Of a stretch of DNA of 64,000 bases, positions 1,144 through 43,895 are shown one piece after another; positions within the stretch are counted from its first letter, which is position 1; each line of letters starts with the position of its first letter. The notes below the pieces were generated by a model. That model was not told the DNA's origin. It saw nothing but the letters and a program-made list of their open reading frames with translations, and ran no database searches. Origin of the DNA: Treponema primitia ZAS-2 (GTDB lineage: Bacteria; Spirochaetota; Spirochaetia; Treponematales; Breznakiellaceae); assembly GCF_000214375.1 (NCBI RefSeq), contig NC_015578.1:2666001-2730000 (forward strand). The letters are read 5' to 3'. Position numbers and translations under genes: made by a program.

Positions 1144-1181
1144 CCTTCCCTCATCCACGCCGTTCATGCTAGTATACCCCT

Positions 1182-1775: not shown

Positions 1776-1845
1776 CCGCTATACTTAGGGGCCCACCCCA
1801 ACAAAACACTTTAATATATCCCGATTTTTTGCTAAACTATTCCCA

Positions 1846-2328
1846 ATGAACACCCCGGGCATACTCCTCTGGACTGCACTATTCTCCTTCCTCCCCATTT
1901 CCGAACTTCGCGGGGGCATCCCCTTTGCCATCCAAAACGGCATCCCCTGGTATTGGGCCTATCTGTATTGTGCGGGCCTCAATGCCCTGGTAGCCCCGGC
2001 CTGCTGGGTCTTCCTCTCCACCCTGCACAAGCTTTTCCTCAAAATGGCCTGGTACCGGAAATTCTTTGACCGCTTCGTGGAACGGGCCCGGGTCAAACTC
2101 CATAGCAAGGTGGAAAAATGGGGCTGGCTGGGCATTGCGGTTTTCGTGGCCATCCCCCTTCCCATAACCGGGGCCTGGACCGGGACCCTGGGCTCCTGGG
2201 TGCTGGGCCTGAGCAAGCGAAAAACCATGATCGCCGTGATCATCGGGGTGTTGGTTTCCGGGGCCATCGTTAGCGCCGTGTGGATCCTGGGGATTCAGGC
2301 TTTTCATCTCTTCATAAAAAAGGTATAG
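1846..2328 (+). CDS. small multi-drug export family membrane protein (PF06695-like)
   Basis: A 160-residue integral membrane protein with the family's early LPISELRGGIPFAI signature (residues about 17-30), a basic loop around residues 68-95, and hydrophobic segments near 30-60, 95-120 and 130-150. The family is called small multi-drug export protein, but the function is poorly established and I infer none. No Shine-Dalgarno is visible; a TAAACT that could be a -10 box lies seven bases before the ATG. The stop lies six bases before the start of the downstream helicase gene, so the two are probably co-transcribed. Confidence 0.8.
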   Translation: MNTPGILLWTALFSFLPISELRGGIPFAIQNGIPWYWAYLYCAGLNALVAPACWVFLSTLHKLFLKMAWYRKFFDRFVERARVKLHSKVEKWGWLGIAVFVAIPLPITGAWTGTLGSWVLGLSKRKTMIAVIIGVLVSGAIVSAVWILGIQAFHLFIKKV

Positions 2329-2333
2329 GCCCC

Positions 2334-4382
2334 ATGCCAAAACTCGACATAGAAGCGAAATTAAACAAAGAGCAGCTCCGGGCGGTAAAAACCATTGACG
2401 GGCCGGTGCTGATCATTGCCGGCGCAGGATCCGGGAAGACCCGGGTCATCACCTACCGCATCGCCCACATGCTGGACCAGGGCATACCCCAGTCGGCGAT
2501 CCTGGCCCTGACCTTTACCAATAAAGCTGCCCGGGAAATGGAAGAGCGGGTAAAGGAACTGACGGGCAAAAAACTCCAGAACCTTACGGTAAGCACCTTT
2601 CATGCCTTTGGGGTAAGGATACTGCGGGACGAAATTGAACGCCTGGGGTACCGGAAGAATTTTTCTATCTACGATGAAACAGACCGGACCCAGGCCATCA
2701 AGGAAAGCCTCAGGGAATGCAGGATTTCTACCGAGGGCACTGATCTCTACGCAGTGGGGCAGCTTTTTTCCAACATCAAGACAGGCCGCTTCAAGTGGGG
2801 AGACGCCTCAGGCGGCATTACCGGAAACCTGGCCAACGATGCCTGGGAGCCAGTGTACAAGGACTACCAGCACAGCCTCAAGGTCTACAATGCCCTGGAC
2901 TTTGACGATCTCCTGGCCCTGCCGATTCAACTCTTTGAACAGTTTCCCGAAGCATTGGAAAAGTACCGCAGCCGTTACCGGTATATCATGGTGGACGAAT
3001 TCCAGGACACCAGTTTTATCCAGTACCGTATCATGCATCTCCTTGCGGATCGCAACGTTTGTGTGGTCGGGGACGATGATCAGTCCATCTATTCCTGGCG
3101 TGGAGCCAGCTATGAAAACATCCTCACCTTTGAAAAGGACTTCCCCGGAGTAACCGAGATCAAGTTGGAACAAAACTACCGTTCCACCAGCACCATCCTA
3201 GAAGCCGCCAACGGGGTCATCTCCAACAATACTAACCGCAAGGAAAAGCAGCTCTGGTCCGGGAACAAGGGGGGCAAGCCGGTGGAGCTTTTCTACCCCC
3301 AAAATGAAAGCGAGGAGGCGGACTTTATCGCCACCCGGATACGGGACCTCATGATGCGGGACCGTCTCAAGTACGATGACTTTGGTGTTCTCCTGCGGAC
3401 CAATTCCATGACCCGCAGCATTGAGGAAGCCTTTCTGGCGGAAAATATCCCCTACCGGGTTTCCGGGGGAACCAGTTTCTTCCAGCGTAAGGAAATTAAG
3501 GACGTGCTCTCCTACCTCCGGGTCATCGCCAACACCAACGATGATGTGAACCTCCTGCGCATCATCAATACACCCCGGCGGGGCATAGGCAAAACGACCA
3601 TAACCATGTTAAACGATCTGGCCCGGAAAAATCACTCCAACATCTGGGACTCCATGGGGAGGATCCGCTATACCCCGGATGTCCTCTTCCAGGAAGCCGC
3701 CAAAGGAAAAGTTGAGCTTGACGAATTTATGCAGCTCATCGAAACCTATAAGGAAGAATTGCTGGGAAAACGGGGGATCTCACAAAAAGTGCGGGCCCTG
3801 GTTGACAGCATTGATTACTGGTCGTACCTGGTGACCGAGTACAGTAAAAATGAAAAGGTCGCCAAGTGGAAATTCCTCAACATAGAAAGCCTAATCCAGT
3901 CCATGGAAACCTGGGAAAAGGACCCTGACAACTTTGACCCCAGCCTCTACGCCTACCTTAACCGGGTAAGCCTTATTACCCGGGACGACGGGGACGATGA
4001 GGCGGGCAAGGGAAAGGTGAACCTCATGACCATCCACGCTTCCAAGGGCCTGGAATTCCCGGTGGTCTTTATCGCAGGCGCCGAAGACGGGATCATCCCC
4101 CATGAACGCGCCATGGAAGACGGGGAAGGCAATTCCGAATTCAGCCCCCTGGAAGAGGAACGCCGCCTGTTCTACGTGGCCATCACCCGGGCCCGGGACA
4201 AACTCTTCATCACCAGCTGCCTGCACCGCCGCCGCCTGCAAAGCAGCACAGATTGTGTCCCCTCGCCTTTTCTGGCGGAAATCCCACCCCACCTGGTAGA
4301 ATACCACGAGCCGGACAAACCTGTAGAAACCCCGGAAGAAGCCGAATCCTACTTCTCCCTCATTAAAAGCAAATTTATCTAA
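2334..4382 (+). CDS. pcrA: PcrA/UvrD/Rep-type superfamily 1 DNA helicase
   Basis: ATP-dependent 3'-5' helicase of the UvrD/Rep/PcrA group, acting in repair and replication restart. The start chosen is the ATG at 2334 (682 residues): an AGG lies nine bases upstream, and a further in-frame ATG at 2280 would overlap the preceding gene by 49 bp. Motifs in order: LNKEQLRAV Q motif, GAGSGKT Walker A (near residue 30), LTFTNKAAREM, VDEFQDTS Walker B, DDDQSIYSWRGA, QNYRS, TIHASKGLEFPVVF, EEERRLFYVAITRA. The C-terminal tail is short. Three hairpins follow its stop. Confidence 0.93.
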   Translation: MPKLDIEAKLNKEQLRAVKTIDGPVLIIAGAGSGKTRVITYRIAHMLDQGIPQSAILALTFTNKAAREMEERVKELTGKKLQNLTVSTFHAFGVRILRDEIERLGYRKNFSIYDETDRTQAIKESLRECRISTEGTDLYAVGQLFSNIKTGRFKWGDASGGITGNLANDAWEPVYKDYQHSLKVYNALDFDDLLALPIQLFEQFPEALEKYRSRYRYIMVDEFQDTSFIQYRIMHLLADRNVCVVGDDDQSIYSWRGASYENILTFEKDFPGVTEIKLEQNYRSTSTILEAANGVISNNTNRKEKQLWSGNKGGKPVELFYPQNESEEADFIATRIRDLMMRDRLKYDDFGVLLRTNSMTRSIEEAFLAENIPYRVSGGTSFFQRKEIKDVLSYLRVIANTNDDVNLLRIINTPRRGIGKTTITMLNDLARKNHSNIWDSMGRIRYTPDVLFQEAAKGKVELDEFMQLIETYKEELLGKRGISQKVRALVDSIDYWSYLVTEYSKNEKVAKWKFLNIESLIQSMETWEKDPDNFDPSLYAYLNRVSLITRDDGDDEAGKGKVNLMTIHASKGLEFPVVFIAGAEDGIIPHERAMEDGEGNSEFSPLEEERRLFYVAITRARDKLFITSCLHRRRLQSSTDCVPSPFLAEIPPHLVEYHEPDKPVETPEEAESYFSLIKSKFI

Positions 4383-4387
4383 TAGGA

Positions 4388-4487
4388 ATTTCTAAAAACT
4401 GAAGTTTTTAGAAATTTACCGCTTAAAAAGCATTTGCTCAATGCAAATGCAAGGGCTCTCAAAAACTAACCGAGTTTTTGAGAGCCC
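4388..4487. repeat. three consecutive perfect hairpins between convergent genes
   Basis: Three adjacent inverted repeats fill the gap between two convergent genes. The first has 12-bp arms at 4388-4399 and 4404-4415 with a TGAA loop. The second has 8-bp arms at 4430-4437 and 4443-4450. The third has 15-bp arms at 4453-4467 and 4473-4487 with an AACCG loop. Read on the minus strand, the second hairpin is followed by TTTTT, so it can end the minus-strand phosphoesterase transcript. The other two lack a clear T-run after the stem. The arms share no sequence with one another. Confidence 0.85.
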
Positions 4488-4488
4488 C

Positions 4489-5610
4489 CTAGTCCCAACC
4501 ACCATCCCCGCTCATCCCGTCAAAGGAAGCGGCGTTTATCTCCGGGGAATTTCCCAACAGTTCTATCCGCGCCTTCACAAACTCGAACCGGTCCTGGTTC
4601 AGCACAGTACGGCAGTATTTGGTACCCGGCAGTATATATACAGGATAACGGCCCCGGTTGACAAATTTTCTTCCCTCTCCCTGGACAAACCAGTAAACCA
4701 GGGAGATCTGATCCATATCCAGTTCAATAGCATTAATGCCCCGTCTGCCTATGGCGCTGCCTGAATTAAAGAGGCAGGGCACAGGCAATTCATCCCCGTA
4801 GAGACTCTGTCTCAGCCCGGACCGTTTTTCCGAGCGTTTCAGCTTCCCCAGCTCCAGGCGCAATGCCCGCACCTCTGAAGCAATACGCTCCCGGTCCTCC
4901 CCCCGTGAAGCAGGATAATCCCGGCAAAGCCGCTCAATTTCAAATTTGATAAATTCAAAACGTCCCAGGGATTCAAAGAGGGCCCGATGGGTGTGGCCGA
5001 TGATGGATATACAGTTATTCTTCAGGGAAAAATCGTAGGCCTTTTTTTCCACAGAAAAACGCCGCAAGGGGCTGCGGGCGGAACTAATATTGCGGATCCC
5101 GAAGGGTTTGAGAAAATAGCGCAGCCCCAGGCGGATAAAGGTATTGTAATCCCTATAGACTTTGGAAGACTGGTGCCCGTGGTACACAAAAATGGGAAGA
5201 ACCCCCGTATCAATGCGTATCGCATTAAACAGGGGATAGGGATACTCCCGCTCAAAGATAAGATCCTCATCGTGGTTCCCCAGGGCCTTGTAGAGCCTGC
5301 CCTCAGCGGCCAGTTTATCAAAGACCCGGTACAAGCCGGGCCACTGTTTCTGTATGTCTCCCAGGGAAAAACGCTGCAGTTCCTCAATATCGCCATTTAA
5401 AATGACCTGCCATCCATCCTGATAGTAATACTGTTCCAGCAATTCTGTAAGGAGGGCCCCGTTCCTGGCAAGATCATCCCGGCGGCCCGCTCCCATATGA
5501 AAATCGCTGATCACCAGGGCCTTGCCTCCCTGTGAAATATCCAGGGACGCCACGGAGTTAAACCGGGGGTTGATTATCTCGGAGAAAAAAGTACCCGCTC
5601 CAGCCATCAC
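4489..5610 (-). CDS. calcineurin-like metallophosphoesterase
   Basis: A 373-residue protein with all the metal-ligand motifs of the calcineurin-like fold: SDFHMG (near residue 35), LNGDIEE, LGNHDED, VYHGHQSS and IGHTHRA. Such enzymes use a two-metal centre to cleave phosphomonoesters or diesters. The substrate is unknown; a resemblance to LpxH/UDP-diacylglucosamine hydrolases is only fold-level. No signal peptide is seen, so it is likely cytoplasmic. The C-terminal 100 residues or so are outside the catalytic core and I do not recognise them. Its ATG overlaps the stop of the upstream DHH/CBS gene by four bases, implying translational coupling and a shared pathway. Confidence 0.85.
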   Translation of the reverse strand: MMAGAGTFFSEIINPRFNSVASLDISQGGKALVISDFHMGAGRRDDLARNGALLTELLEQYYYQDGWQVILNGDIEELQRFSLGDIQKQWPGLYRVFDKLAAEGRLYKALGNHDEDLIFEREYPYPLFNAIRIDTGVLPIFVYHGHQSSKVYRDYNTFIRLGLRYFLKPFGIRNISSARSPLRRFSVEKKAYDFSLKNNCISIIGHTHRALFESLGRFEFIKFEIERLCRDYPASRGEDRERIASEVRALRLELGKLKRSEKRSGLRQSLYGDELPVPCLFNSGSAIGRRGINAIELDMDQISLVYWFVQGEGRKFVNRGRYPVYILPGTKYCRTVLNQDRFEFVKARIELLGNSPEINAASFDGMSGDGGWD

Positions 5611-6923
5611 GCTTCTTCCGCTGGGCTTGTCTGACGTTTTTTATATTGAAGATAATCCCAGCGGGTAACGATCCCAACCAGTTTTTTATCCTCCACAATG
5701 GGAAGATGCCCGATATGGTGTTTGTAAAAAATCCGCTCAATTTCCCGCATAGTAACGTTACTGTCCGCAGTCGCCGCAGGTTTGGACATATAGGCCCGCA
5801 CCGGGGCATTCATCACAGCAGCCTTGCGCCCCTTCATAATATCCCTGAGGCTGATAAACCCCGACACCTCATCTTCGGCATTCAGTACCGGAGCGCCGGT
5901 AAGGTCCGTCTTTTCAAAAAAGATAGACGCCTCCATGAGGCTCATATCCTCTTTCAGGGCCTGAACATTTTTGGTCATAACATCCGCTGCCCTGGTTGCC
6001 GGCGTCAGGGATTGTTCCAGGTAGCTGATAAATTCCTCGTAAAAAGCCGGCCCCTCCCTCCCGCTGATCTTCGCCGAAGCCGCCAACTGATGCCCCCCGC
6101 CGCCATACACATGGAGCAGTTCGTGAAGGTCTATCTTCAGTTTTTGGCTGCGGGCAATGAGGAGTATGGTTTTGCTTTTTGGAATAGAAAAAACCGCAAA
6201 ACAGGCATCCGGGTTATGGATGTCCATGACCTTTTCAACCACCGCCGCCAGGCCGGGGGTATTTTCACTCAGCTCAAGGTACCCCAAAAGGATCTCGTGC
6301 CCCTGAATGGTTTGGGTCTTCATAGCCTGGAGGATCTGGTTAAGGATCTGGATTTGCTCATCCTCCCTGATAGTCTCCAGAAAGGACTTAACCAGTTTTA
6401 AAGAAGCCCCCATATCCATAAGCCAGGCGGAAACCTCAAAATCCACCCTGCCGACATTTTCAAAGATGAGCCGCCCCGTATCGGCATAGATCCCCGTCAG
6501 GGCAATGGTCGCCTCCTCGGGCAGGAGCCGTATCCCCCGTTCCATGGCCATTTTCCCCAACAATGAGGTATTCGCCCCAAATTTCCCCCCCTCAAGGACG
6601 GCGCCCAGGATATTGCACTGTTCAGTATGGTGGTGATCATAGATCCGTATCTGGGGCTCCGAATTCCGTATACAGGCAAAATATTCGCTCACCCGCTCCG
6701 CTTTACAGGTATCCACTATGATGATATTTTCAATGGTTTCCCCCTTGATATCCTTAGGGGTCAAAAAGTCAAAATATTGGGTATAGAAGGTATACAGGTT
6801 CTGGGCCGCCGGATGGATCAGGCCACTCCGCACCAGCCTGAAATCGGGAAACAGTTTTTTTATAAGAATTAGGGATCCCAGGCAATCTAAGTCCATGTTG
6901 GTATGGCCAAAGGCTATGTTCAT
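5607..6923 (-). CDS. DHH-DHHA1 phosphoesterase with two CBS domains
   Basis: A 438-residue protein. The N-terminal DHH domain carries HTNMDLDCLGS, VDTC and YDHHH; a DHHA1 domain follows with GGGGHQLAAS (near residue 275); two CBS domains occupy about residues 310-430. DHH proteins cleave phosphodiesters such as nanoRNA or cyclic dinucleotides, and CBS pairs usually bind adenosine nucleotides. This order matches the N-terminal half of long bacterial A-adding tRNA nucleotidyltransferases, but the polymerase domain is absent here. An AAGGA lies upstream of the ATG. It overlaps the downstream metallophosphoesterase by four bases and diverges from the GntR gene. Confidence 0.85.
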   Translation of the reverse strand: MNIAFGHTNMDLDCLGSLILIKKLFPDFRLVRSGLIHPAAQNLYTFYTQYFDFLTPKDIKGETIENIIIVDTCKAERVSEYFACIRNSEPQIRIYDHHHTEQCNILGAVLEGGKFGANTSLLGKMAMERGIRLLPEEATIALTGIYADTGRLIFENVGRVDFEVSAWLMDMGASLKLVKSFLETIREDEQIQILNQILQAMKTQTIQGHEILLGYLELSENTPGLAAVVEKVMDIHNPDACFAVFSIPKSKTILLIARSQKLKIDLHELLHVYGGGGHQLAASAKISGREGPAFYEEFISYLEQSLTPATRAADVMTKNVQALKEDMSLMEASIFFEKTDLTGAPVLNAEDEVSGFISLRDIMKGRKAAVMNAPVRAYMSKPAATADSNVTMREIERIFYKHHIGHLPIVEDKKLVGIVTRWDYLQYKKRQTSPAEEA

Positions 6924-7064
6924 TATATATCCTTCAGGGCTTACGTTTTTCTTATCATCCGATCACTTTCAGATAAGTAAGCATATCATCTGCGGCCCTC
7001 TATTACAAGAAATTACAATGCAAATTTCATTATTCTGATGATTTGAGGTTTTTCCGAAACCTGA

Positions 7065-7093
7065 TTGATATCATACCCATATACGAATAATAT
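7065..7093 (+). promoter_or_regulatory. sigma-70-type promoter of the GntR gene
   Basis: TTGATA at 7065-7070 and TAATAT at 7088-7093 are separated by 17 bases. The predicted transcription start falls on or next to the ATG at 7100, so the mRNA would be leaderless. A partly matching operator half-site (GATGATTT) lies upstream at 7037-7044, consistent with autoregulation. Confidence 0.6.
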
Positions 7094-7099
7094 GAATGT

Positions 7100-7795
7100 A
7101 TGAAAAAAAATACGGAAATCGGTAAATCCCTGGGGGAACAGGTCTCAGAAGATCTGATTCGGTATATCATCGATAACAATCTTCCCAGAGGGGCAAAACT
7201 CCCCAATGAATTAGAATTAACCCGCCTCCTGGGGGTCGGCCGCAGTACCATCCGTGAAGCGGTCCGGTCTCTGGTGAGCCGCAATGTACTGGAGGTACGC
7301 CAGGGGGCGGGCACCTTTGTGGCGGAGCACCGGCTTGGGGTGCCCGATGATCCCCTGGGCTTTACCTTTATCCGGGACAAAGAAAAGCTCACCATGGACC
7401 TTGTGGAGGTGCGCCTGTCCATAGAACCCCGCATTGCCGCCATGGCTGCCCGGGCTGCATCCGACGAAGACATCAGGGAGCTTAAAGCCCTGGCCCGGGA
7501 AGTGGAGGATCTGATCCATGCCGGAGAGGATCATAGTCATAAGGATGTTGAATTCCATACCCGGATCGCCCAGAGCAGCCGGAATCTGGTGGTGCCTAAC
7601 CTTATGCCAATCATTCAGCAGTCTATTATCCTGTTCGTTAATACCACCCACCGGGTATTGGTAAAGGAAACCATCGACACCCACCGGCTCATTGTAGACG
7701 CCATTGAGGAACACGATTCCATCGGCGCATCGGATGCCATGACCCTGCACATTATTCACAACCGGAATTATCTAAAAACACTTTTTCGGGAATAA
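7100..7795 (+). CDS. GntR-family (FadR/FCD subfamily) transcriptional regulator
   Basis: A 231-residue regulator. The N-terminal winged helix has the GntR signature LPNELELTRLLGVGRSTIREAVRSL (about residues 35-60), and the rest is an all-helical FCD ligand domain with a metal-binding-type pattern (DxxFH with later histidines: VEFHTRI, TTHR, DTHR). FCD regulators typically respond to sugar acids or other carboxylates. It precedes the carbohydrate operon, with a perfect 17-bp palindrome just after its stop and another on the next promoter, so it is most likely the local repressor. It appears to be expressed from a promoter that abuts its start codon. The effector is not deducible; mannonate, gluconate or KDG would fit the neighbouring dehydratase. 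Confidence 0.9.
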   Translation: MKKNTEIGKSLGEQVSEDLIRYIIDNNLPRGAKLPNELELTRLLGVGRSTIREAVRSLVSRNVLEVRQGAGTFVAEHRLGVPDDPLGFTFIRDKEKLTMDLVEVRLSIEPRIAAMAARAASDEDIRELKALAREVEDLIHAGEDHSHKDVEFHTRIAQSSRNLVVPNLMPIIQQSIILFVNTTHRVLVKETIDTHRLIVDAIEEHDSIGASDAMTLHIIHNRNYLKTLFRE

Positions 7796-7803
7796 GTCCC
7801 TGT

Positions 7804-7820
7804 AAATCATCAGATGATTT
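7804..7820. promoter_or_regulatory. perfect 17-bp palindromic operator, probably for the GntR protein
   Basis: AAATCATC-A-GATGATTT is a perfect palindrome of two 8-base half-sites around one central base. It lies nine bases after the regulator's stop. The same half-site recurs at 7929-7936 and 7037-7044. Confidence 0.7.
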
Positions 7821-7885
7821 TTTGGCTTCATCCAGGATGCAAGGTTATTTCTGCAGTTTTTTCCCGTATTTACCCTATATTTTAC

Positions 7886-7914
7886 TTGACTGATTTAATA
7901 TTTGCCTTTATCAT
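7886..7914 (+). promoter_or_regulatory. sigma-70 promoter of the GH130 operon
   Basis: TTGACT at 7886-7891 and TATCAT at 7909-7914 with an exact 17-base spacer. Transcription would start near 7921, inside the operator that follows, giving a leader of about 80 bases. Confidence 0.75.
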
Positions 7915-7919
7915 TACAA

Positions 7920-7936
7920 AATACATCTGATGATTT
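7920..7936. promoter_or_regulatory. operator overlapping the operon transcription start
   Basis: An imperfect version of the 7804 palindrome: ten of sixteen arm positions match it outright and six of eight base pairs of the dyad are kept, with the right half (GATGATTT) identical. Its position over the predicted start site suits repression by the GntR protein. Confidence 0.65.
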
Positions 7937-7999
7937 TAACTGCCCAGCGCAGTCAATGAAAAGCGAATATATGAAATATGGAATACAAGGAGTAATAAA

Positions 8000-9001
8000 A
8001 TGCTGGTAACCCGTTGTCCGGAAAACCCGATTGTAACGCCCGGGATATATCCCTGGCGCCAATCAAATGTGTTTAATCCTGCTGTTATTTTTGAGGACGG
8101 CGCCTTCTATATGATTGAACGCGCAGCCGGCGGCTTGCGGCCCTTCCACTGCTTTTTTGGCCTGCTCAAAAGCACCGACGGTGTGCATTTTACCCATGTG
8201 CAGGACACACCAATTGTTACACCCGCAGATTTAGGATGCCCCTTTGGCTCAATACAGGACCCCCGGATCGTTAAAATCGACGGTATCTTTTACCTCACCT
8301 ATGCCCTACGCCCCTCCTCCTATGGGTATGCCCCTACGGGAGTTGGAAAACCGGATGAAATCCGTTATACCTTCCCCGGCGAGCATGGCAAACCGGAAAG
8401 CTGTATGACCCGCAGCGGTATTATGCAGAGTACCGACCTTATTCATTGGAAACAGGTATGCTATACAACGCCGAAGGAAATCAACGACCGGGACAATATT
8501 CTGTTCCCGGAAAAGATCAACGGCCGTTTTGCGCTCCTCCGCCGGCCAGAAGAGTACATTGGCCCCCAATACGGGGTCGATAAAGCCGGTATCTGGATCT
8601 GCTACTCCGATGATCTGCTTAGCTGGACTGAGCCGGAACTGATCGCTGCAGCCCAGGAAGATTGGGAATACAAGAAAATAGGCGGCTCTACGCCCCCACT
8701 AAAGACCGAACTGGGATGGCTTACCCTGTACCACGGGGTTGATGCGGACAATGTATACCGGTGCGGAGTTATGCTGCTGGATCTGAAAAACCCGGCTAAG
8801 GTAATTGCCCGGGCTAAAAATTTTATACTTGAACCCCAGGAATACTACGAAAAATTCGGGCTCTATATACCAAACGTGGTGTTCCCCACAGGGGCAGTGC
8901 TCAAGGACGGCCTTGTGTATATTTATTACGGCGTTACCGACACAGCCATTTGCCTGGCCACAGTGCCGCTTAAGGATCTGCTTGATTTTGTACGCAAGTA
9001 A
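8000..9001 (+). CDS. GH130 beta-mannoside phosphorylase-family protein
   Basis: A 333-residue five-bladed propeller enzyme of family GH130. Members reversibly phosphorolyse beta-mannosides (mannosyl-glucose, beta-1,4-manno-oligosaccharides, beta-1,2-mannobiose) to alpha-mannose-1-phosphate. Family motifs seen: FNPAVIF, QDPRI with the probable general acid Asp87, RDNILFPEKINGR, GGSTPP, LYHGVD and the C-terminal YIYYGVTDTAI. There is no signal peptide, so it acts in the cytoplasm on imported oligosaccharide. An AAGGAG precedes the ATG. First gene of the operon. The subfamily, and hence the linkage specificity, cannot be set by eye. Confidence 0.88.
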   Translation: MLVTRCPENPIVTPGIYPWRQSNVFNPAVIFEDGAFYMIERAAGGLRPFHCFFGLLKSTDGVHFTHVQDTPIVTPADLGCPFGSIQDPRIVKIDGIFYLTYALRPSSYGYAPTGVGKPDEIRYTFPGEHGKPESCMTRSGIMQSTDLIHWKQVCYTTPKEINDRDNILFPEKINGRFALLRRPEEYIGPQYGVDKAGIWICYSDDLLSWTEPELIAAAQEDWEYKKIGGSTPPLKTELGWLTLYHGVDADNVYRCGVMLLDLKNPAKVIARAKNFILEPQEYYEKFGLYIPNVVFPTGAVLKDGLVYIYYGVTDTAICLATVPLKDLLDFVRK

Positions 9002-9037
9002 TAGTAGTGGATTCTATTTTTTCAAAGGAGCAATAAA

Positions 9038-10420
9038 GTGAAGCGGATTGATTTTCCAAAAGATTTTCTATGGGGAACCGCAACAGCCTCTTTTCAGGTT
9101 GAAGGCAGCCCGGATGGTGACGGCAGGGGAAAAAGTATCTGGGATACCTTTTGTGAAACCCCCGGAAAGGTAGAAAATGGCGATACAGGAAAAGTCGCCT
9201 GTGATCATTACAATCGCTACAAAGAAGATGTGGCTCTCATGTCGGAGCTTGGGGTCAATGCTTACCGCTTTTCCATCTCATGGCCCCGGCTTTTACCGGA
9301 TGGTGCGGGACAGATCAACCAGAAGGGCATTGATTTTTACAATAAGCTGATTGATTCTCTGCTGGAAAAAAATATTACCCCCGCAGCTACCCTTTACCAC
9401 TGGGATTTACCCCAGGCCCTGTTCGATAAAGGCGGGTGGGTCAACCGTGATACTGTGGAACGTTTCCGCGATTATGCTGAATTGGCCTATAGCCATTACG
9501 GTGACCGTGTTAAAAACTGGTTCACCCATAATGAGCCTTGGGTTACCGCTTTTGTAGGAAACCTGCAAGGACGCCATGCTCCCGGTTATAAAGACTTAAA
9601 AACCGCAGTGGCGGTGAGTTTTCACATGGTCTTGTCCCACGCCATGGCGGTTGAAGCTTACAGAAAGAGTCCCGGCGGAAAAGACGGAAAAATCGGTATT
9701 GTCCTGAACCTGTACCCTGCTGTTCCCGCTTCCGACAGTACTGAGGATAAAAATGCCGCCGAACTTTGCGACGCATATCAAAACCGCTGGTTTTTAGACC
9801 CCCTCTACAAAGGAAGCTATCCTGAACCGCTTCGCAGTATTTTTGAAAAAGCCGGAGCGCCTATTCCTGAAAAATCCGGGGATTTATCCTTTATTTCCGG
9901 ACAGAAAACCGACTTTTTAGGGCTTAACTATTACCTTAGAAAGGTGGTACGCGCCGCTACGGATTCTGAAAAATTGGAAGCTAAGACCCCCCACCCCACG
10001 CTGCCCTATGTTGAAATTATTCCCCAGGGTGCACAGGTGACAGCCATGCCCTGGGAAGTGCACCCCGAAAGTTTATACGATGTGCTCAAACGGCTTGATG
10101 TTGATTATGGCAGCCCTAATATACTGGTAACCGAAAACGGGGCGGCATTTCAGGACGATAAACTTGCTGCGGGGGCAAATTACCTTATAGACGATGAAGA
10201 CCGCCGGAGTTTCCTGGAGACCCATTTTGTTGCGGCCCTCAAGGCGATTAAAGCAGGTGTCAACCTGAAAGGCTTTTTTGTGTGGAGTATGATGGATAAC
10301 TTTGAATGGGCCCGGGGATATTCCAAACGGTTTGGAATTTTTCACGTTGATTATGCCACTAAAAAACGGAGTTGGAAAAAGAGCGGGCGTTGGTATCAGT
10401 CTTTTTTAAAAAAAGATTAG
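9038..10420 (+). CDS. GH1 beta-glucosidase-type glycosidase
   Basis: A 460-residue retaining glycosidase. The N-terminal GH1 signature FLWGTATASFQVEG is present, the acid/base is Glu166 in THNEPW, and the nucleophile is Glu366 in VTENGAA. Length is normal for bacterial BglA/BglB. It has no signal peptide and no phospho-sugar context (an ABC, not a PTS, importer lies next door), so it probably hydrolyses unphosphorylated beta-glucosides, beta-mannosides or related disaccharides in the cytoplasm. It starts at GTG 9038 behind AAAGGAG. It is 36 bp downstream of the GH130 gene. Confidence 0.93.
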   Translation: MKRIDFPKDFLWGTATASFQVEGSPDGDGRGKSIWDTFCETPGKVENGDTGKVACDHYNRYKEDVALMSELGVNAYRFSISWPRLLPDGAGQINQKGIDFYNKLIDSLLEKNITPAATLYHWDLPQALFDKGGWVNRDTVERFRDYAELAYSHYGDRVKNWFTHNEPWVTAFVGNLQGRHAPGYKDLKTAVAVSFHMVLSHAMAVEAYRKSPGGKDGKIGIVLNLYPAVPASDSTEDKNAAELCDAYQNRWFLDPLYKGSYPEPLRSIFEKAGAPIPEKSGDLSFISGQKTDFLGLNYYLRKVVRAATDSEKLEAKTPHPTLPYVEIIPQGAQVTAMPWEVHPESLYDVLKRLDVDYGSPNILVTENGAAFQDDKLAAGANYLIDDEDRRSFLETHFVAALKAIKAGVNLKGFFVWSMMDNFEWARGYSKRFGIFHVDYATKKRSWKKSGRWYQSFLKKD

Positions 10421-10442
10421 CATATAGTAATTTGGAGGAAAC

Positions 10443-11741
10443 ATGAAAAACAGTGTAAAAGTGAGCGTTGTTTTTGTAGTAGCGGTTTTGGCGGTCCTTT
10501 CAGGCTGTCAGAAGAATCAGAATGCCGGTAATAACGGCAAGGTCCAGATCACGGTTTGGCATTCCTACGTAGGTTCAGACCAACGTGCACAATATATGGA
10601 AAACCGCATGGCCCAATTCCGTGTGGAAAATCCTGATGTGGTGATTGACGAACAAAAAATGCCCCGGGATCAATATCAAACACGGCTTAAGACTCAGGCC
10701 GCAGCCAACAGCCTTCCTGATGGCTTTATCCTTTGGCCGAACGCAATGACCATTGAATTTGCAAACGCCGGCTTGATTGCCCCCATCAATGATTACCTTG
10801 ATCAGAACCCCGAATGGAGGGATGGGCTGGTTTCATCTGCCTTGGATCAGTTTAATGTTAATGGTAAAATCTATAGTGTTGCCCAGGGAATTTCTTTAAC
10901 ATCAATTTTCTTTTATAACAAAGCATTGTTTGATAAATACAATGTTAAAGTACCCACAACCTATCCCGAATTGAAAACTGCCGTTGATGTCTTTAAGAAA
11001 AATGGCATTATTCCAATAGCCCATGGTGATAAAAACCAATGGCCCACCCAGTCATCGGTGTTTAGCATTGTTGCAAACCGTTCAACCGGCTCTCAATGGC
11101 TTACGGACGCTTTGACAAAGCAAAATGGGGCTAAATTTACCGACAAGGTATTTACCGATGCCCTGGATATTATGAAGGATCTTGCTACATCCGGGGCGCT
11201 TAACAGCGATTGGAGTACCATTGATAACGTGCAGAGCCATGCCTATTTCTACCGTGAAGAAGCGGCGATGATGATTGAAGGTTCATGGCTGCTGCCGGAA
11301 CTGGTTTCCCAGGCGCCTGAAAAGATAAAACCCTTCATTGAAATGTCCGTGTTTCCCGCCCTTCCCGGCGGAAAGGGTGATCCCTCCACAATTTCAGGAG
11401 TTGCCAGTACGGGTTTTGTTATAAACTCAAAGGCGTCTCCGGAACAAAAAGCAGTGCTTTTAAAACTTATCAAATTCCTGACCGACGATGCTTCTCAGAA
11501 AATTTTCATGGAGTATGATATTCCTGTATCGTCAGTCAATGTCACCCCGGATTTGAATAAAGTTACTCCGTTTTATGCAAAGTTAGTAACCCTCATCAAA
11601 GAGCATCCCCTGGTAACTGTTTATGACTCTGCCCTTAATTCTGAGCAGACAGAAATTGTCAACAATGGGCTGCAATCTGTCATGCTGGGAATTCAGACTC
11701 CCGCTGCCATTGCAGCTGAGCTGGACAAAACAGTTAAATAA
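10443..11741 (+). CDS. sugar ABC transporter substrate-binding lipoprotein
   Basis: A 432-residue family 1 (MalE-like) solute-binding protein. It has a lipoprotein signal peptide with hydrophobic core and lipobox LSGC (Cys about residue 22), then the SBP pattern ITVWHSYVGSDQRAQYME, FNVNGKIYSVAQG and an INSKASPEQK C-terminal lobe. It should be anchored in the periplasm and deliver sugar to the two downstream permeases. A GGAGG lies upstream. An intercistronic hairpin after its stop would favour a higher dose of binding protein than of permease. Ligand unknown; a short beta-mannoside or beta-glucoside is inferred from the flanking enzymes. Confidence 0.93.
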   Translation: MKNSVKVSVVFVVAVLAVLSGCQKNQNAGNNGKVQITVWHSYVGSDQRAQYMENRMAQFRVENPDVVIDEQKMPRDQYQTRLKTQAAANSLPDGFILWPNAMTIEFANAGLIAPINDYLDQNPEWRDGLVSSALDQFNVNGKIYSVAQGISLTSIFFYNKALFDKYNVKVPTTYPELKTAVDVFKKNGIIPIAHGDKNQWPTQSSVFSIVANRSTGSQWLTDALTKQNGAKFTDKVFTDALDIMKDLATSGALNSDWSTIDNVQSHAYFYREEAAMMIEGSWLLPELVSQAPEKIKPFIEMSVFPALPGGKGDPSTISGVASTGFVINSKASPEQKAVLLKLIKFLTDDASQKIFMEYDIPVSSVNVTPDLNKVTPFYAKLVTLIKEHPLVTVYDSALNSEQTEIVNNGLQSVMLGIQTPAAIAAELDKTVK

Positions 11742-26215: not shown

Positions 26216-27931
26216 CTATTTATTCAGCTTAATATTCCATTTTGTAAGTACCGCATCACGCATCAACTGGTCGATTTTTTCCATCTCGTTACGGCTTGCA
26301 ACCGTGTCGCCGATTTCCAGGTATTGGTATCCTGCGTCCGCTTCGGGCCATACGGTCAGCCCCGGGCCGTTCGGATTACCGGTCTTAATAAAGTTCACCC
26401 AATAATTGCTCACGGTTTCCGCAAGCTCAAAGTCGTAAGCGGTCCAGGGACGTGCGGGGGGTACACCCTGCCTGAGGGTATCAAAGGCATACCACATTTC
26501 GCTTGAATGCCAGGCCCAAAAGTTCTTGACGTCACGAATGGTACCCGCTTCTTCGGGTCTGGAGGGGGTAAAGTGGCTGAATAAATAGCTGTAATAGGTT
26601 CCGGCGCTGGTTCCGTACACCTGTTTCATGTATGCGCCAAAGACCCTATTTACCATCAGACAGCGGCTGTAGGAACCGCCGATATTGACGTTGAGCCCAT
26701 AGGTCGCAAAGGTCCGAAAGGTATCAGCCGCATTCGCATCGGTTACCTTTACCAGGTTTTGGAAGTCGTATTGGTCGTACAGGGGTCCAAGACCTTTTTT
26801 GTAGGCGTCGTAGAATTCGGCGGAGGTCATCTTTAGAGCATCAATCGCTTCGCCAAGATTGGTACCGGAAAGGATATTGATACCCTTCCATTCGCCCGCA
26901 TCAACTGCATCGGCCATGATAGAATATTTGAGAGAATAGCCGTCATTTATCATATTCGTGGGAGTGTTGCTAACATAGTCGTCAGTATCCTTGCCCAGGA
27001 AAACCTTGAAGTCCATTGCGCGGAGCGATTCCAAGCTTGCATTCGTGTCGATACCGAGATGGGTAAGGTATTTCTGTCCGTCCGCTTCTCCCCCCGCCTG
27101 GTCCTTGAATACATCAAACCATTTTACACCGCTTTCAAGGATCATGTTTTTGATTCCATGCTGAGGCCCTGTGGCAAGTGGCGAACTGACAATCCCCGCA
27201 GCTTTGGTTGTACCGCCGGATTGACCGCCCAGGGTGATATTATTCGGGTCACCGCCAAAGGCCGCGATATTCGCTTTAACCCACGCCACGGCTTTGATCG
27301 TATCCATTAAGCCGTAGTTTCCGCTATGCCCCTGTTCTTTTGTCAACTGCGGCAGGGACATATAACCGAAAACGCCCAGACGCTGACCGACGGAGACCAC
27401 TATAACGCCTTTTTTTGCCAGGGTATCACCATCAAATTCGGGTTCATAGGACCAGCCATGACGTAGGCCGCCCCCATGAAACCATATGTACACCGGGCGT
27501 TTTTCATTTGAGGATTTCGCACCGGTGGTGATATTCACATACAGGCAGTCCTCACTAACCGGCGGAAATTCTCCCCAATTATAGAAATCCGTCTTCCAGG
27601 GCTCGGAACCGGCACCCTGATCCGCATACTGTGGAGAAATTGCCGCATAGGTATCACAGGCTCGTACCCCAGTCCAGGGTTTGGGATCCTGCGGAGCCTG
27701 CCACCGCAAATCCCCTACAGGAGGCGCCGCATAGGGAACGCCCTTGAATATGGTTACATCAGGATACAAAGCGCTTACCACGCCGCTAACACTGCCATAG
27801 GCAGTCTTGACTATACCAATACCGGTTCCCGCCGCCGTTCCGGTATCACTCGGCTCTGAGTTGCCCTTGGCAAACGCAAAGGTACCCACCGCTACGAGAA
27901 TTACACATGCGGTTAGCAATTTTTTCATCAT
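26216..27931 (-). CDS. exported type-B carboxylesterase
   Basis: A 572-residue alpha/beta hydrolase of the carboxylesterase type-B/para-nitrobenzyl esterase family. I start it at ATG 27931, giving a clean signal peptide (KKLLTACVILVAVGTFAFA), with GAGGAGG nearby; an in-frame ATG at 27982 would only add a charged leader. Motifs: FKGVPYAAPPVGDLRW, EDCLYVNI, the oxyanion-hole HGGG, nucleophile Ser238 in GGQSGG, and the probable catalytic His in WAWHSSEMWY. Active in the periplasm or outside, possibly on acetylated or phenolic esters of plant polysaccharide. It is a paralogue of the C-terminal domain of the 39-43.8 kb protein. Its own promoter lies at 27955-27982. Confidence 0.9.
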   Translation of the reverse strand: MMKKLLTACVILVAVGTFAFAKGNSEPSDTGTAAGTGIGIVKTAYGSVSGVVSALYPDVTIFKGVPYAAPPVGDLRWQAPQDPKPWTGVRACDTYAAISPQYADQGAGSEPWKTDFYNWGEFPPVSEDCLYVNITTGAKSSNEKRPVYIWFHGGGLRHGWSYEPEFDGDTLAKKGVIVVSVGQRLGVFGYMSLPQLTKEQGHSGNYGLMDTIKAVAWVKANIAAFGGDPNNITLGGQSGGTTKAAGIVSSPLATGPQHGIKNMILESGVKWFDVFKDQAGGEADGQKYLTHLGIDTNASLESLRAMDFKVFLGKDTDDYVSNTPTNMINDGYSLKYSIMADAVDAGEWKGINILSGTNLGEAIDALKMTSAEFYDAYKKGLGPLYDQYDFQNLVKVTDANAADTFRTFATYGLNVNIGGSYSRCLMVNRVFGAYMKQVYGTSAGTYYSYLFSHFTPSRPEEAGTIRDVKNFWAWHSSEMWYAFDTLRQGVPPARPWTAYDFELAETVSNYWVNFIKTGNPNGPGLTVWPEADAGYQYLEIGDTVASRNEMEKIDQLMRDAVLTKWNIKLNK

Positions 27932-27954
27932 TATACCATCCTCCTCTAGAATAT

Positions 27955-27982
27955 ATGTTACCATTTTCTCATCGTTTTTCAA
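27955..27982 (-). promoter_or_regulatory. promoter of the carboxylesterase gene
   Basis: On the minus strand TTGAAA (27982-27977) and TAACAT (27960-27955) with a 16-base spacer, followed by GAGGAGG and the ATG. Confidence 0.6.
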
Positions 27983-39004: not shown

Positions 39005-42000
39005 CTACCTGCCTCCGAGAATCCCTTCAAGACCATATTCAGTGATGACCTTTTCCCGCAGGAGTGCGTCCCGGTTTGCCAGGGTTCCGGTATACAGGGA
39101 AGTCTTTGCCTCCACCTTATACTCCAGCCCCTTACCCAGCTCCATAAAGGTTTTGGAGCTTGCGCTGAAACTAGGCCAGTTGGGCAGCCCGGCTCCGTTT
39201 GGATTACCGGTTTTAATGAAGTTTGCCCAGTAGGAGGATAGGGTTTCGGCCATCTGCCTGTCCGCGGGGGTCCATGCTCTCTGCTGCGGGATGTTCCTCA
39301 TGGAATTGAACACATACCAGAGTTCGCTGGAATGCCAGGACTTGTCCCGCGCGGGATCCCGTCCTGGGCGGCTGCTGTTGCTCGGCCAGTGGTCAAAGTA
39401 GTACACATAGGTATTCTTCCCGTTGATGGCAAACAGCTCCGCGGCAATACGGCTCCTCATAAAGGTCAGTTCAGCGCTGGCATAATCGTTTGAATCATTA
39501 GCAGTATTGATGTCCGTCAGGGGGTATAGGGATTCAAAATTGTACTTGCCATAGAGATCCCCATAGGTCCGCTGGAGAGAAGTTCTGATTGTATCAATAG
39601 GCCGCGGTGTTCCATAACCCCAGGCGCTGCTTTCCCCGTCGTTTGAACCGTACAGCAGATCAATTCCATCCAGTACGCCGGGTTGCAGGAAAAAGTCTTT
39701 TGGCTGCTGTACCAGAGCATATCCGTCAATACATTGCGCCAAACCCTGGTAATATTCGTCCTTTGTGGTTGTGCTGTTGATAAAGAATTCAGGGGGAATC
39801 GCCCGGAGTTCCGCAAGGGATTTACCTTCCAGCCCTTTCAGCTTGAGGTAATTAGCGGATCGGGTCTTCACATCATCCAGGGTAACTAACGTGGCGAAAG
39901 CACTGATGCTGCTTTCCATGATAGCCCGTTTGAAAAGCCCTTTTGCAAGGGGGGATGTTATCAGGTTCCGCGATGCCTGAGCGCCTGCGGACTGCCCACC
40001 TATGGTGACCTGATCAGGGTCCCCCCCAAAGGCCGCGATATTTTCCTTTACCCATTTAAGCGCCGCAATCTGGTCCAGCAGACCGTAGTTGCCCGAGGCA
40101 TGGTAGGAAGTTTCGGCGTCCAGCTGGTCATTCGCATAGTATCCGAAAAATCCCACCCGGTAGGCTGCTGTTACAACAATTATACCTTTGGCGGCCAGTG
40201 CGGCGGGGTTCATTTCAGCTTCATAGCTGAACCCGTGATAGGAAGCGCCGCCGTGGAAGAACACGTACACAGGCCGCTTGTCAGTTCTGACCGAAGTATC
40301 CGTCGAGGCGGTGGTAACATTGAGGTACAGGCAATCTTCGCTCATAAGCGGGGCATCCCCGGTGTTGATATAATCGTAATAGAATTCCCCGCCCCAACTG
40401 TCGTCCACGCTAAGTATCTGCCAGGCCATGGGGGCGTATGTATCGCAGGCCCGTACGCCGGACCATCTGGCGGGGGGCTGCGGCGCTTTCCACCGGTTCA
40501 CCCCAACCGGCGGGGCGGCGAAGGGAATGCCCTTAAAGGTGGTGACCGTATCGTTATCCGCCATCACCCCTGTCACCAGTCCTCCTTGGGTCGTAAGCTG
40601 CCCCGAAAGCGCAGGGCGTGTTAAATTAACAGTATAGGTGCGTTCCCCGGCCCCCTTCTTGACAGTAATGGCGATCGCACTCAAACCTGTTACATCAATC
40701 TCCCGGACAATTTCTGTGGATGGATGATTGATGGACGGCAGTATAGCCCGGTTACCTGATCCAGCAACTGTGCCATTGACACTAATACTGTCGGGAATCC
40801 CGTGCAGGTTGTACAGCCGCATGGTCAATTTGAGGGTATTTTCATTATCCGCGAGCCTGGCGGTATAACTTGTGTTGTAGGGGGCAAAATTACCTCTCAC
40901 CAGGCTGCGATTCTGGGTATTTGAATAAATTTCCAGATTTTCAAGGGCTGGATTTTCTTCGATGGCCGCCCAGCCGTTGTACCAGAACCCTGCCGCCCGC
41001 ATTTTAAGCTGCCTGAGTTCTTCAACATTACTGCCCATAGCCCTGGTGGTAAGCTTGCCCCGCATGGCGCCGGAGAGAACACTTTCAGCCGCAAAGCGCA
41101 TATCGGAGATCATCTGCTTTCCGGCCAGCCCCTGGAGCGGCACAGGCTGCTCCTGCCAGGAATGGCCGCTCAGGACATACAGGCTATCGATGTCCTTTAT
41201 AGCGTTTTCCAGCTTGACCAGATCCCTGTAGAACACTTCAACCGGTTCCTTCCCGTTACCAAAGTTGAATACATAGCTCCCGGACCCGACGGCATCACCC
41301 ACCGCCAGGTAGCGGTTGGCCGCGTCAAGATAGGTCATGGCGCCGATGGTGTGACAGGAAACCTCAATACACCGGAAGTTGAAGGCCTTCCCATGGATAG
41401 TCGGACCGGCGATCAGGTCCCCGTCGGAGATGGCGGCATACCGGCTGGTAGTATAGGTAACCGGAATGGCGGACCAATCTTTTTTCGGCCAGTACACTTT
41501 GGCATCCCGGAACTGTTCGACTTTTCCGTAATGATCGCCGTGGGCATGGGTGATGGCGATCTCGATTGGAAGCGTATCACTGCCCCCTTCCAGCTTGATT
41601 AAGCGCTTGATCTCCGCGCGAAGATCCCCTTCGCCCATGCCGGTGTCAAACATCAATGCCTTGTCGGAACCGACAAAGAGATAGATGTCGTCATTGGTGG
41701 TAAAGCCGCTTGCGTCCTGGACACGCCAAATGCCGTCATCGATCTTCACTGAGTTGTAGCCGGCCCAAAGGGGCTTGGCATCAATGATAAGAGTATAAAT
41801 CATAACCGACTGCCCGTTTCCCGATTGTACTTCTATTGAATATTTGTTCTCCCCCTCCTTGATCCGCACAGGATAAGGCTGGTTAAAGTCGCAGGGCACA
41901 CCGTCTATTTTATAGGTACTCCGTTCCGAATAGGTCACCGGCTGGATGTACATGGTGGTACTGGTTCGGGAACCCCAGTCAACGGTTACCCGGTACTGGG

Positions 42001-43777
42001 TCTGTTGGGGATCAAAATCCCTGTCCTTGAAATCATCAAGCCCGATGTTGTACGGTTCCAGACGGCCGCCCTTGAAGGAACTCACCTTGATGTCAATGAG
42101 CGAGGGGTTTGTGAGGTTGTCTTTCCTGTTGGCCGGCCATGGCGTTGCTTCAGGGAGCGTTCCCCCCTCACCTCTTTTCACCGCGATCTGGTATACCTTG
42201 ACCGCATCCCGGTTTGTTACCTCCACAGAATAATTCGTCACCGCGTTCAGGGGAGGCGACACTTTCAGCGACCCGCCGTTTGCCACGCTGAGGCCGTTGA
42301 TTTTTACGGTACTGCCGGGGTACTGCACAACCGGGGTAAACTCAATACTGTCCACCGATGCGTCGATTGTTGCGGTATACTGGGTCACGTAGGCATTGAA
42401 GGATGGCCGGATGACATCACGGCGGAGGGATTCCGCAAAGCCGCCGAGGAACTCAAGAGCCGCCGCATCCGGATAGACATTCAGATGGTCATACCAATAT
42501 CCTGCCAGACCGTACTGAAACTGACGAAGCACGCTGAGGGTTTCGTTTCCCGTACTGCGGGTGGTGAAATACCCGGCGCTTGGTTTTTCAAGCACCGTGT
42601 CGGTGGCGATCCTCATATCCGTGATAAGCTGGTTCACCGGGTATCCCCGAAGCGGGAATACGCTTTCCTGCCACGCATGTCCCGGCAGCATATAGATGTC
42701 GGTGAAGGGTTTTACCTTTTCTTCCAGTTTTTTTAATTCTTTATTGTAAGTGACCACGGTCGGCGTATTGGGCAGCATGTCCCAAACATAACTGCACGAG
42801 CTAATCGCATCGCCTGTAATCAGATACTTGCCGCTTGTATCCAAGTATACCATGGAACCCGCAGTATGGCTGATCACAGAAACACACTCAAAGATACGGC
42901 CATCCGGGCCGTTGATAAAATCCCCATCCCTGGTGAATACAAATTTACTCAGGGCATCCTGGGTGTAGGTGGCCGGGATCGCATGGGCATCCTTCAGGGG
43001 CCAATACACCGTACTATCGGCAAACAGGGGGGCACGCCCGAAGTGGTCTCCATGACCGTGGGTAATTACCACCTCAATGGGCAGGTCCGCGCTCCGGCCT
43101 TCCAGGGCGATTATCCGATTTACTTCGGCGCGAAGATCCCCTTCACCCATACCGGCATCGAACAACATGGCCTTATCCTTGCCCACAAAAAGGTACATGC
43201 TGTCGTTGGTGACAAATCCGCTGGCATCCCCGATATGCCATAACCCTGTGGCAATCTGGTCCGATTTGTACCCGGACCAGAGGTTTTTGGCGTCAATGGT
43301 GAGGGTATACCTTTTCCTGACCGCCCCGTCCGGCGCCGTCACTTCAATGGATAGGGTATTTTTCCCTTCTACAATGTTTTTCCTGAAGGGAACATTGAAC
43401 TCGCTTGGGGCGCCGTCTATGACAAAGGTACTGTTCGGCGAATAGGCAACGGGCTTTACATACATAACCGTGCTGGTCCTGGAGCTGTAGTCAACCGTGA
43501 CCGTATAATCCGTTTTGGTTCTGTCAAATTCCCCGCCCGGAAGCTGAGACAGGCCGTCCAGGGGGATCCGGTAGGGCTCCAGCCTGCCGCCCTTGAAGGA
43601 GCTTACCTCTATGTCGATAAGCGTCGCGTCTTTGCTGCCATCCACAAGTACATACTCAGGGTCCCATCTGGGCCCTTCGGCAGAACCACCGGCCATGACC
43701 GCAAATGCGGGAAGTATCAAAAACATCAAACATAATACCTGGACAATACCAGCCCGTATAACCCTTGTTACCTTCAT
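39005..43777 (-). CDS. exported double metallo-beta-lactamase-fold/carboxylesterase fusion protein
   Basis: A 1590-residue protein with an N-terminal signal peptide (residues 1-29) and GGAGGAGG upstream. It holds two tandem modules about 504 residues apart. Each has a cadherin-like beta-sandwich (starting VSSFKGGRLEPY) and an MBL-fold hydrolase with a full metal site: HGHGDH (240-245), SHTAG, TGDA, LPGHAW in the first; HAHGDH (744-749), CHTIG, VGDA, LSGHSW in the second. Another beta-sandwich (about 1000-1090) leads into a type-B carboxylesterase (about 1095-1590) with HGG, nucleophile Ser1263 in GGQSAG and WHSSELWY. All three catalytic centres look intact. It should act outside the cytoplasm; the substrate is unknown, but lactones and esters are plausible. 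Confidence 0.88.
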   Translation of the reverse strand: MKVTRVIRAGIVQVLCLMFLILPAFAVMAGGSAEGPRWDPEYVLVDGSKDATLIDIEVSSFKGGRLEPYRIPLDGLSQLPGGEFDRTKTDYTVTVDYSSRTSTVMYVKPVAYSPNSTFVIDGAPSEFNVPFRKNIVEGKNTLSIEVTAPDGAVRKRYTLTIDAKNLWSGYKSDQIATGLWHIGDASGFVTNDSMYLFVGKDKAMLFDAGMGEGDLRAEVNRIIALEGRSADLPIEVVITHGHGDHFGRAPLFADSTVYWPLKDAHAIPATYTQDALSKFVFTRDGDFINGPDGRIFECVSVISHTAGSMVYLDTSGKYLITGDAISSCSYVWDMLPNTPTVVTYNKELKKLEEKVKPFTDIYMLPGHAWQESVFPLRGYPVNQLITDMRIATDTVLEKPSAGYFTTRSTGNETLSVLRQFQYGLAGYWYDHLNVYPDAAALEFLGGFAESLRRDVIRPSFNAYVTQYTATIDASVDSIEFTPVVQYPGSTVKINGLSVANGGSLKVSPPLNAVTNYSVEVTNRDAVKVYQIAVKRGEGGTLPEATPWPANRKDNLTNPSLIDIKVSSFKGGRLEPYNIGLDDFKDRDFDPQQTQYRVTVDWGSRTSTTMYIQPVTYSERSTYKIDGVPCDFNQPYPVRIKEGENKYSIEVQSGNGQSVMIYTLIIDAKPLWAGYNSVKIDDGIWRVQDASGFTTNDDIYLFVGSDKALMFDTGMGEGDLRAEIKRLIKLEGGSDTLPIEIAITHAHGDHYGKVEQFRDAKVYWPKKDWSAIPVTYTTSRYAAISDGDLIAGPTIHGKAFNFRCIEVSCHTIGAMTYLDAANRYLAVGDAVGSGSYVFNFGNGKEPVEVFYRDLVKLENAIKDIDSLYVLSGHSWQEQPVPLQGLAGKQMISDMRFAAESVLSGAMRGKLTTRAMGSNVEELRQLKMRAAGFWYNGWAAIEENPALENLEIYSNTQNRSLVRGNFAPYNTSYTARLADNENTLKLTMRLYNLHGIPDSISVNGTVAGSGNRAILPSINHPSTEIVREIDVTGLSAIAITVKKGAGERTYTVNLTRPALSGQLTTQGGLVTGVMADNDTVTTFKGIPFAAPPVGVNRWKAPQPPARWSGVRACDTYAPMAWQILSVDDSWGGEFYYDYINTGDAPLMSEDCLYLNVTTASTDTSVRTDKRPVYVFFHGGASYHGFSYEAEMNPAALAAKGIIVVTAAYRVGFFGYYANDQLDAETSYHASGNYGLLDQIAALKWVKENIAAFGGDPDQVTIGGQSAGAQASRNLITSPLAKGLFKRAIMESSISAFATLVTLDDVKTRSANYLKLKGLEGKSLAELRAIPPEFFINSTTTKDEYYQGLAQCIDGYALVQQPKDFFLQPGVLDGIDLLYGSNDGESSAWGYGTPRPIDTIRTSLQRTYGDLYGKYNFESLYPLTDINTANDSNDYASAELTFMRSRIAAELFAINGKNTYVYYFDHWPSNSSRPGRDPARDKSWHSSELWYVFNSMRNIPQQRAWTPADRQMAETLSSYWANFIKTGNPNGAGLPNWPSFSASSKTFMELGKGLEYKVEAKTSLYTGTLANRDALLREKVITEYGLEGILGGR

Positions 43778-43807
43778 CTTTTCGCCTCCTCCGTAAAACG
43801 GTTATTC

Positions 43808-43860: not shown

Positions 43861-43895
43861 CTATGCCTATTGTGCAATATGCACAATAGGCATAG
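43861..43895. repeat. perfect 16-bp inverted repeat with 3-base loop
   Basis: CTATGCCTATTGTGCA (43861-43876) and its exact reverse complement (43880-43895) around ATA. It lies between the histidine kinase stop and the MBL/esterase promoter. With no T-run it is not a standard terminator; it may be an operator, an mRNA 3'-end stem, or one of the hairpin elements. Confidence 0.85.

Follow-up and report, generated by a model that had tools for sequence, protein, structure and literature searches.

A type-B carboxylesterase fused to two metallo-β-lactamase modules in Treponema primitia ZAS-2, with a counterpart of the same domain order in Oscillospirales

Treponema primitia, a spirochaete of the termite hindgut, encodes a 1590-residue protein in which two modules, each built from a metallo-β-lactamase (MBL) domain flanked by cadherin-like domains, precede a type-B carboxylesterase domain. 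The catalytic residues are complete at all three sites, and the same domain order occurs in a second phylum, in an independent genome of the Oscillospirales (Bacillota). We would give roughly even chances to the reading that the gene product is an extracytoplasmic, multi-catalytic hydrolase that cleaves ester bonds in conjugates derived from plants or the diet. Each domain belongs to a known family, and the novelty lies in the architecture assembled from them. A published description or a characterised enzyme with this combination was not found in the openly licensed papers searched, in keeping with the original prediction; one may exist elsewhere.

The window, that is, the whole stretch of DNA that was analysed, comprises 64,000 nucleotides at positions 2666001-2730000 of a genome represented by a single contig of 4,059,867 bases. 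The family Breznakiellaceae now includes most spirochaetes of termite guts (PMC13067680). The gene is a single uninterrupted frame with an ATG start, just 5′ of which lies a Shine-Dalgarno sequence, GGAGGAGG, at about 43785-43792. Its features, together with related chains in other genomes, are listed in Table 1.

Table 1. Features of the T. primitia gene (positions in the window unless stated) and loci referred to in the text.
Feature	Position	Strand	Description	Basis
Whole gene, 1590 aa	39005..43777	-	signal-like N-terminus, 2 × (cadherin-like, MBL, cadherin-like), carboxylesterase	ORF, Pfam
Signal-peptide-like N-terminus, residues 1-29	43691..43777	-	basic start, hydrophobic core, AFA/VMA end	by eye from sequence
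Cadherin-like domain 1, residues 83-161	43295..43531	-		PF12733
MBL domain 1, residues 193-367	42677..43201	-		PF00753; aligned ligands; model with MBL fold
Cadherin-like domain 2, about residues 457-535	42173..42409	-	end of module 1 (genome 2708173-2708409)	PF12733
Cadherin-like domain 3	41786..42019	-	start of module 2 (genome 2707786-2708019)	PF12733
MBL domain 2, residues 666-885	41123..41782	-		PF00753 at 41264-41686, extended by alignment to the last His
Cadherin-like domain 4, about residues 959-1054	40616..40903	-	end of module 2 (genome 2706616-2706903)	PF12733
Type-B carboxylesterase domain, residues 1060-1552	39122..40600	-		PF00135; aligned to 1c7i
L091, G679 (Oscillospirales)	893-9145	+	secreted-looking chain of ~2650 aa	
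L092, G744 (Oscillospirales)	2945-10990	-	secreted-looking chain of ~2650 aa	
L104, G643	3-7217	-	at least 2405 aa, runs off contig	
Examples of cadherin-like domains elsewhere in the genome	G000:C1:3011028-3012680, 984382-985899, 991152-992291			PF12733

The Pfam matches all lie far above the curated cut-offs and are thus not due to chance. Cadherin-like (PF12733) recognized four stretches (2.8e-34, 117.9 bits against a cut-off of 24.2), Lactamase_B (PF00753) two, each separately over the cut-off (6.1e-25, 88.8 bits against 22.7), and COesterase (PF00135) was matched over profile positions 4-501 of 515 (1.7e-95, 321 bits). The N-terminal 1000 residues of the protein consist of two repeats; in the repeat alignment, identity between residues 48-552 and residues 552-1055 is 45%, rising to 52% in the MBL part. 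The original prediction had named the two MBL domains and the carboxylesterase, and the open reading frame, the Pfam matches and the alignments bear out its coordinates, its two complete MBL motifs with their spacing and its catalytic Ser1263. It had overlooked the second cadherin-like domain that closes each module, and the number of these domains is four. Its placement of the protein outside the cytoplasm agrees with the signal-like N-terminus. Export can be expected because of this N-terminus and because a homolog, described below, carries SLH domains. The N-terminus of the T. primitia protein contains no lipobox pattern, and a Pfam search revealed no SLH domains (PF00395) in the chain, which sets it apart from the S-layer-anchored class.

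Concerning the catalytic sites, HGHGDH begins at residue 240 and HAHGDH at residue 744, 504 residues apart. By alignment, the predicted metal ligands are H240, H242, D244, H245, H304, D323 and H367 in module 1 and H744, H746, D748, H749, H809, D828 and H872 in module 2. With HxHxDH followed by His, Asp and His complete, both copies belong, judged by their aligned residues, to the MBL-fold metallohydrolase superfamily. The Asp in the bridging position corresponds to that of glyoxalase II, PqsE and LACTB2, unlike the B1/B2 β-lactamases. In the aligned modules of three genomes, six in number, the seven ligands and a GHxWQE motif around the last His are invariant, which points to selection on both MBL sites. 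In the C-terminal domain, S1263, E1382 and H1482 occupy the positions of the triad in p-nitrobenzyl esterase (1c7i) in a nearly full-length alignment. The domain is a type-B carboxylesterase with a complete Ser-Glu-His triad and a predicted esterase activity. Whereas the carboxylesterases compared (1c7i, 1qe3) are free-standing, here the domain is the last part of a chain with two MBL modules.

The chemistry of the MBL domains is the weakest link in the functional reading, as none of the family models compared assigned them a specific one. Class B β-lactamases (bla_class_B_core) gave 35.1 bits against a cut-off of 100, and the subclasses B1 and B3 gave 18.6 against 200 and 14.7 against 240, respectively. 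The hydroxyacylglutathione hydrolase model (glyoxalase II, GloB; TIGR03413) scored 40.2 bits against an equivalog cut-off of 200.8, and acylhomoserine lactone (AHL) lactonases of the AidB and AiiA types scored 18 bits against 360 and 11.3 against 375, also equivalog cut-offs. The domains share the HxHxDH, His, Asp and His ligand set with the bridging-Asp hydrolases (glyoxalase II/GloB-like proteins, LACTB2 and PqsE), but differ from them in being fused, duplicated and combined with cadherin-like domains and in carrying GHxWQE. A structural model of module 1 was of fair quality (mean pLDDT 78), and its residues 118-391 matched MBL folds at Z 19-20. LACTB2 and PqsE were among these matches, but the β-lactamases BcII and IMP and a flavodiiron protein lay within about 1 Z, so that no functional class was singled out; the model gives a fold, not a substrate. 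An AlphaFold model of module 2 with the esterase, computed with two sequences, was unusable (pLDDT 33).

Relatives were sought by scanning one genome per species, 84,980 species in all, with two short peptide patterns. This led to two metagenome-assembled genomes (MAGs) of Bacillota. In Gx485_bin168 (Clostridiales Family XIII; L063), a protein of 1106 residues with a signal-like start carries two cadherin-like/MBL modules in tandem, both metal motifs included, as in T. primitia, and an Ig-like Big_2 tail replaces the carboxylesterase. This MAG probably originates from a termite gut, since another bin labelled Gx485 derives from the termite Glyptotermes (PMC11707648). The copy in Cd354_bin102 (Oscillospiraceae; L064) is broken by the contig end. 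At L064:3507-4532 (+), its module 1 stops before HxHxDH and continues directly into the start of a second cadherin-like domain, either because sequence has truly been deleted or because the assembly collapsed where the contig ends. A GH2 β-galactosidase gene with an NPCBM domain lies upstream.

Searching the family of the latter MAG revealed the closest counterpart, a protein of 1793 residues (L071) in a genome of the Oscillospirales (G643). It contains two cadherin-like/MBL modules, a carboxylesterase and then three C-terminal SLH domains. The domain order is that of the spirochaete chain, and the esterases are 71% identical; module 2 is 54% identical, and its MBL part 61%. The counterpart differs in having the three SLH domains, in passing from MBL 2 to the esterase without an intervening cadherin-like domain, and in the divergence of its modules (34-54% identical). 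An original expectation, that a conserved architecture in other genomes would support the prediction, is thus borne out. The same protein bears on whether separate genes were falsely joined during sequencing or assembly, an artefact that the original prediction had named as its refutation. Among the sampled spirochaetes the fusion is found in one genome only, which such an artefact would explain, but that genome is a single contig, the frame is unbroken and the GC3 values are alike across the parts of the gene (0.65, 0.63 and 0.63) and similar in the neighbouring kinase gene. Because an unrelated bacterium has the same layout in an independent, diverged homolog, the fusion is real, and the chance of an artefact is practically negligible.

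The distribution was examined in overlapping sets of genomes: 393 from Spirochaetota, 150 from the family of T. primitia including 5 of the same genus, 247 from the order of the Family XIII MAG, 18 from the family of the Oscillospiraceae MAG, and 295 from the order and 196 from the class of G643. These are samples with many incomplete genomes, and absences from them are provisional. Among the Spirochaetota and own-family sets, the full module was not found beyond T. primitia ZAS-2. In all sets searched, it occurred outside this strain only in the Family XIII and G643 genomes, in addition to the cut-off Oscillospiraceae copy. In the 295 Oscillospirales genomes, the next-best esterase after the 71% counterpart was 45% identical. 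The best esterase matches in other spirochaete genomes were 42-46% identical, the upper end of this range being reached over short parts only. No relatives were found among viral contigs, and plasmids provided only distant MBLs and esterases of around 41% identity.

Phylogenetic analysis of 43 esterases paired the fused domain with that of the G643 counterpart (100/100). They fell in a clade of 12 sequences (96/95) together with a free-standing esterase of the T. primitia window, all other members being from Oscillospirales. The sequences were the best matches from two groups only, so that a third source is possible. On this grouping, Bacillota are the probable source of at least the form that carries the esterase, a direction that we infer, and a large fused gene has probably passed between the phyla. 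Base composition gave no signal of a recent transfer. In the MBL tree, all six modules formed one clade (99/100). Module 2 of T. primitia was closest to the second modules of the Family XIII and G643 proteins, and module 1 grouped weakly with their first modules (89/68). A topology with the two T. primitia modules as one clade, corresponding to a duplication of its own, was neither favoured nor rejected (p-AU 0.11). Identity is higher between the esterases (71%) than between the modules (46-54%), so that parts of the gene may have been exchanged separately. The free-standing esterase (26216-27982, minus strand) has 588 residues, is 42-43% identical to the fused one, clusters with Oscillospirales esterases (100/99) and adjoins a GH94 gene.

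Longer chains in Oscillospirales combine similar activities. Those of L091 and L092 begin with a COesterase domain, followed by three repeats of an EstA_Ig_like domain, an α/β hydrolase and an MBL domain with intact HxHxDH, and then FIVAR, giving up to seven catalytic domains per protein. They resemble the T. primitia chain in uniting a COesterase and several intact MBL domains behind a signal-like start, and differ in that the esterase comes first, three extra EstA-like esterases are present, the spacers are other β-sandwiches and the MBL domains are 23-27% identical to module 1. The chain of L104 consists of a GH3 glycosidase, an EstA-like esterase, a COesterase and a second EstA-like esterase.

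Taken at its fullest, our reading is that Sec export would deliver a chain with three active sites carried on β-sandwich spacers. Two would be dinuclear-metal MBL sites, copies of one ancestral module with the bridging-Asp ligand set of glyoxalase II and PqsE, and the third a serine carboxylesterase cutting carboxylic esters. The MBL sites would attack additional bonds of the ester, lactone or a similar type, and the chain would serve in the gut for the parallel de-esterification of acylated or aryl-ester glycosides and phenolics. The spirochaete protein would be released or periplasmic; in the Bacillota relative, the SLH domains would anchor the chain to the cell wall. This extracytoplasmic ester-stripping role is suggested by the GH94 (cellobiose-phosphorylase-type), GH2, GH1 and sugar ABC-transport genes in the window, which do not adjoin the gene, and by the Bacillota chains that join esterases to GH3 or to MBL and EstA-like domains. 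Methoxylated aromatics are among the compounds usable by T. primitia, and a release of ferulate- or sinapate-like acids would be consistent with this. The ester- and lactone-degrading activity originally proposed is reasonable for the serine esterase; for the MBL domains, to which the family models assigned no specific chemistry, it is one option among several. Concerning the proposal that the enzyme is processive, nothing in the sequence indicates that one substrate passes from site to site.

The MBL modules might act instead on unrelated bonds, such as phosphoesters, sulfate esters, cell-wall phosphocholine-like groups or β-lactams, and the chain would then simply bundle separate secreted hydrolases. 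MBL chemistry is broad, the profile matches include an alkylsulfatase (4nur), β-lactamases, GloB-like proteins and AHL lactonase, all weakly, and the Family XIII protein has the tandem MBL part without an esterase. On the other hand, the β-lactamase models fall far under their cut-offs, the bridging Asp sets the modules apart from B1/B2 enzymes, and the recurrence of esterase and MBL domains in the differently ordered chains of L091 and L092 suggests related roles; we regard unrelated bonds as possible, with a probability clearly below that of the ester-cleaving role. Improbable, in our estimation, is a mainly structural or binding role of the modules, for example in adhesion to substrate or mucus, with incidental MBL catalysis and the esterase as the sole working enzyme. 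The four cadherin-like domains, of a kind numerous in this genome, would be in accordance with such a role, but seven ligands invariant in six diverged modules would not be expected if catalysis were dispensable.

Should the MBL sites act on the conjugates that the esterase cuts, the chain would put the MBL fold to a new use outside the cell and would be a naturally occurring enzyme with several de-esterifying sites. That Bacillota and a spirochaete have apparently exchanged so large a fusion is also relevant to the sharing of digestive capacity within gut communities. A bolder extension, which we put forward only tentatively, is that these proteins form a previously undescribed, horizontally mobile class of extracellular hydrolases with several catalytic sites in gut bacteria, that their metal-dependent MBL domains work together with serine esterases, that the modules constitute a new family of extracellular ester/lactone hydrolases acting on plant conjugates, and that the intact chain outperforms its separated parts.

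PF12733 has 22 matches in the T. primitia genome, mostly in long open frames, and none in 14 control genomes. In a genome of the same family (G1018), a frame of 767 residues with a signal-like start (L108:544 onward, plus strand) contains two other tandem MBL domains (HNHGDH and HAHGDH) and, by eye, neither cadherin-like nor esterase parts. The neighbours of the T. primitia gene itself encode a hybrid kinase and an EF-G-like protein; it does not lie in a sugar operon, which counts against the ester-stripping role. A promoter and terminator scan gave matches no more frequent than in shuffled sequences. Between the stop of the hybrid kinase and the gene, a perfect 14-bp inverted repeat is present at 43863-43893 (ATGCCTATTGTGCA tat TGCACAATAGGCAT, read on the minus strand); it has no T-run and is a candidate for a terminator of the kinase gene or an operator.
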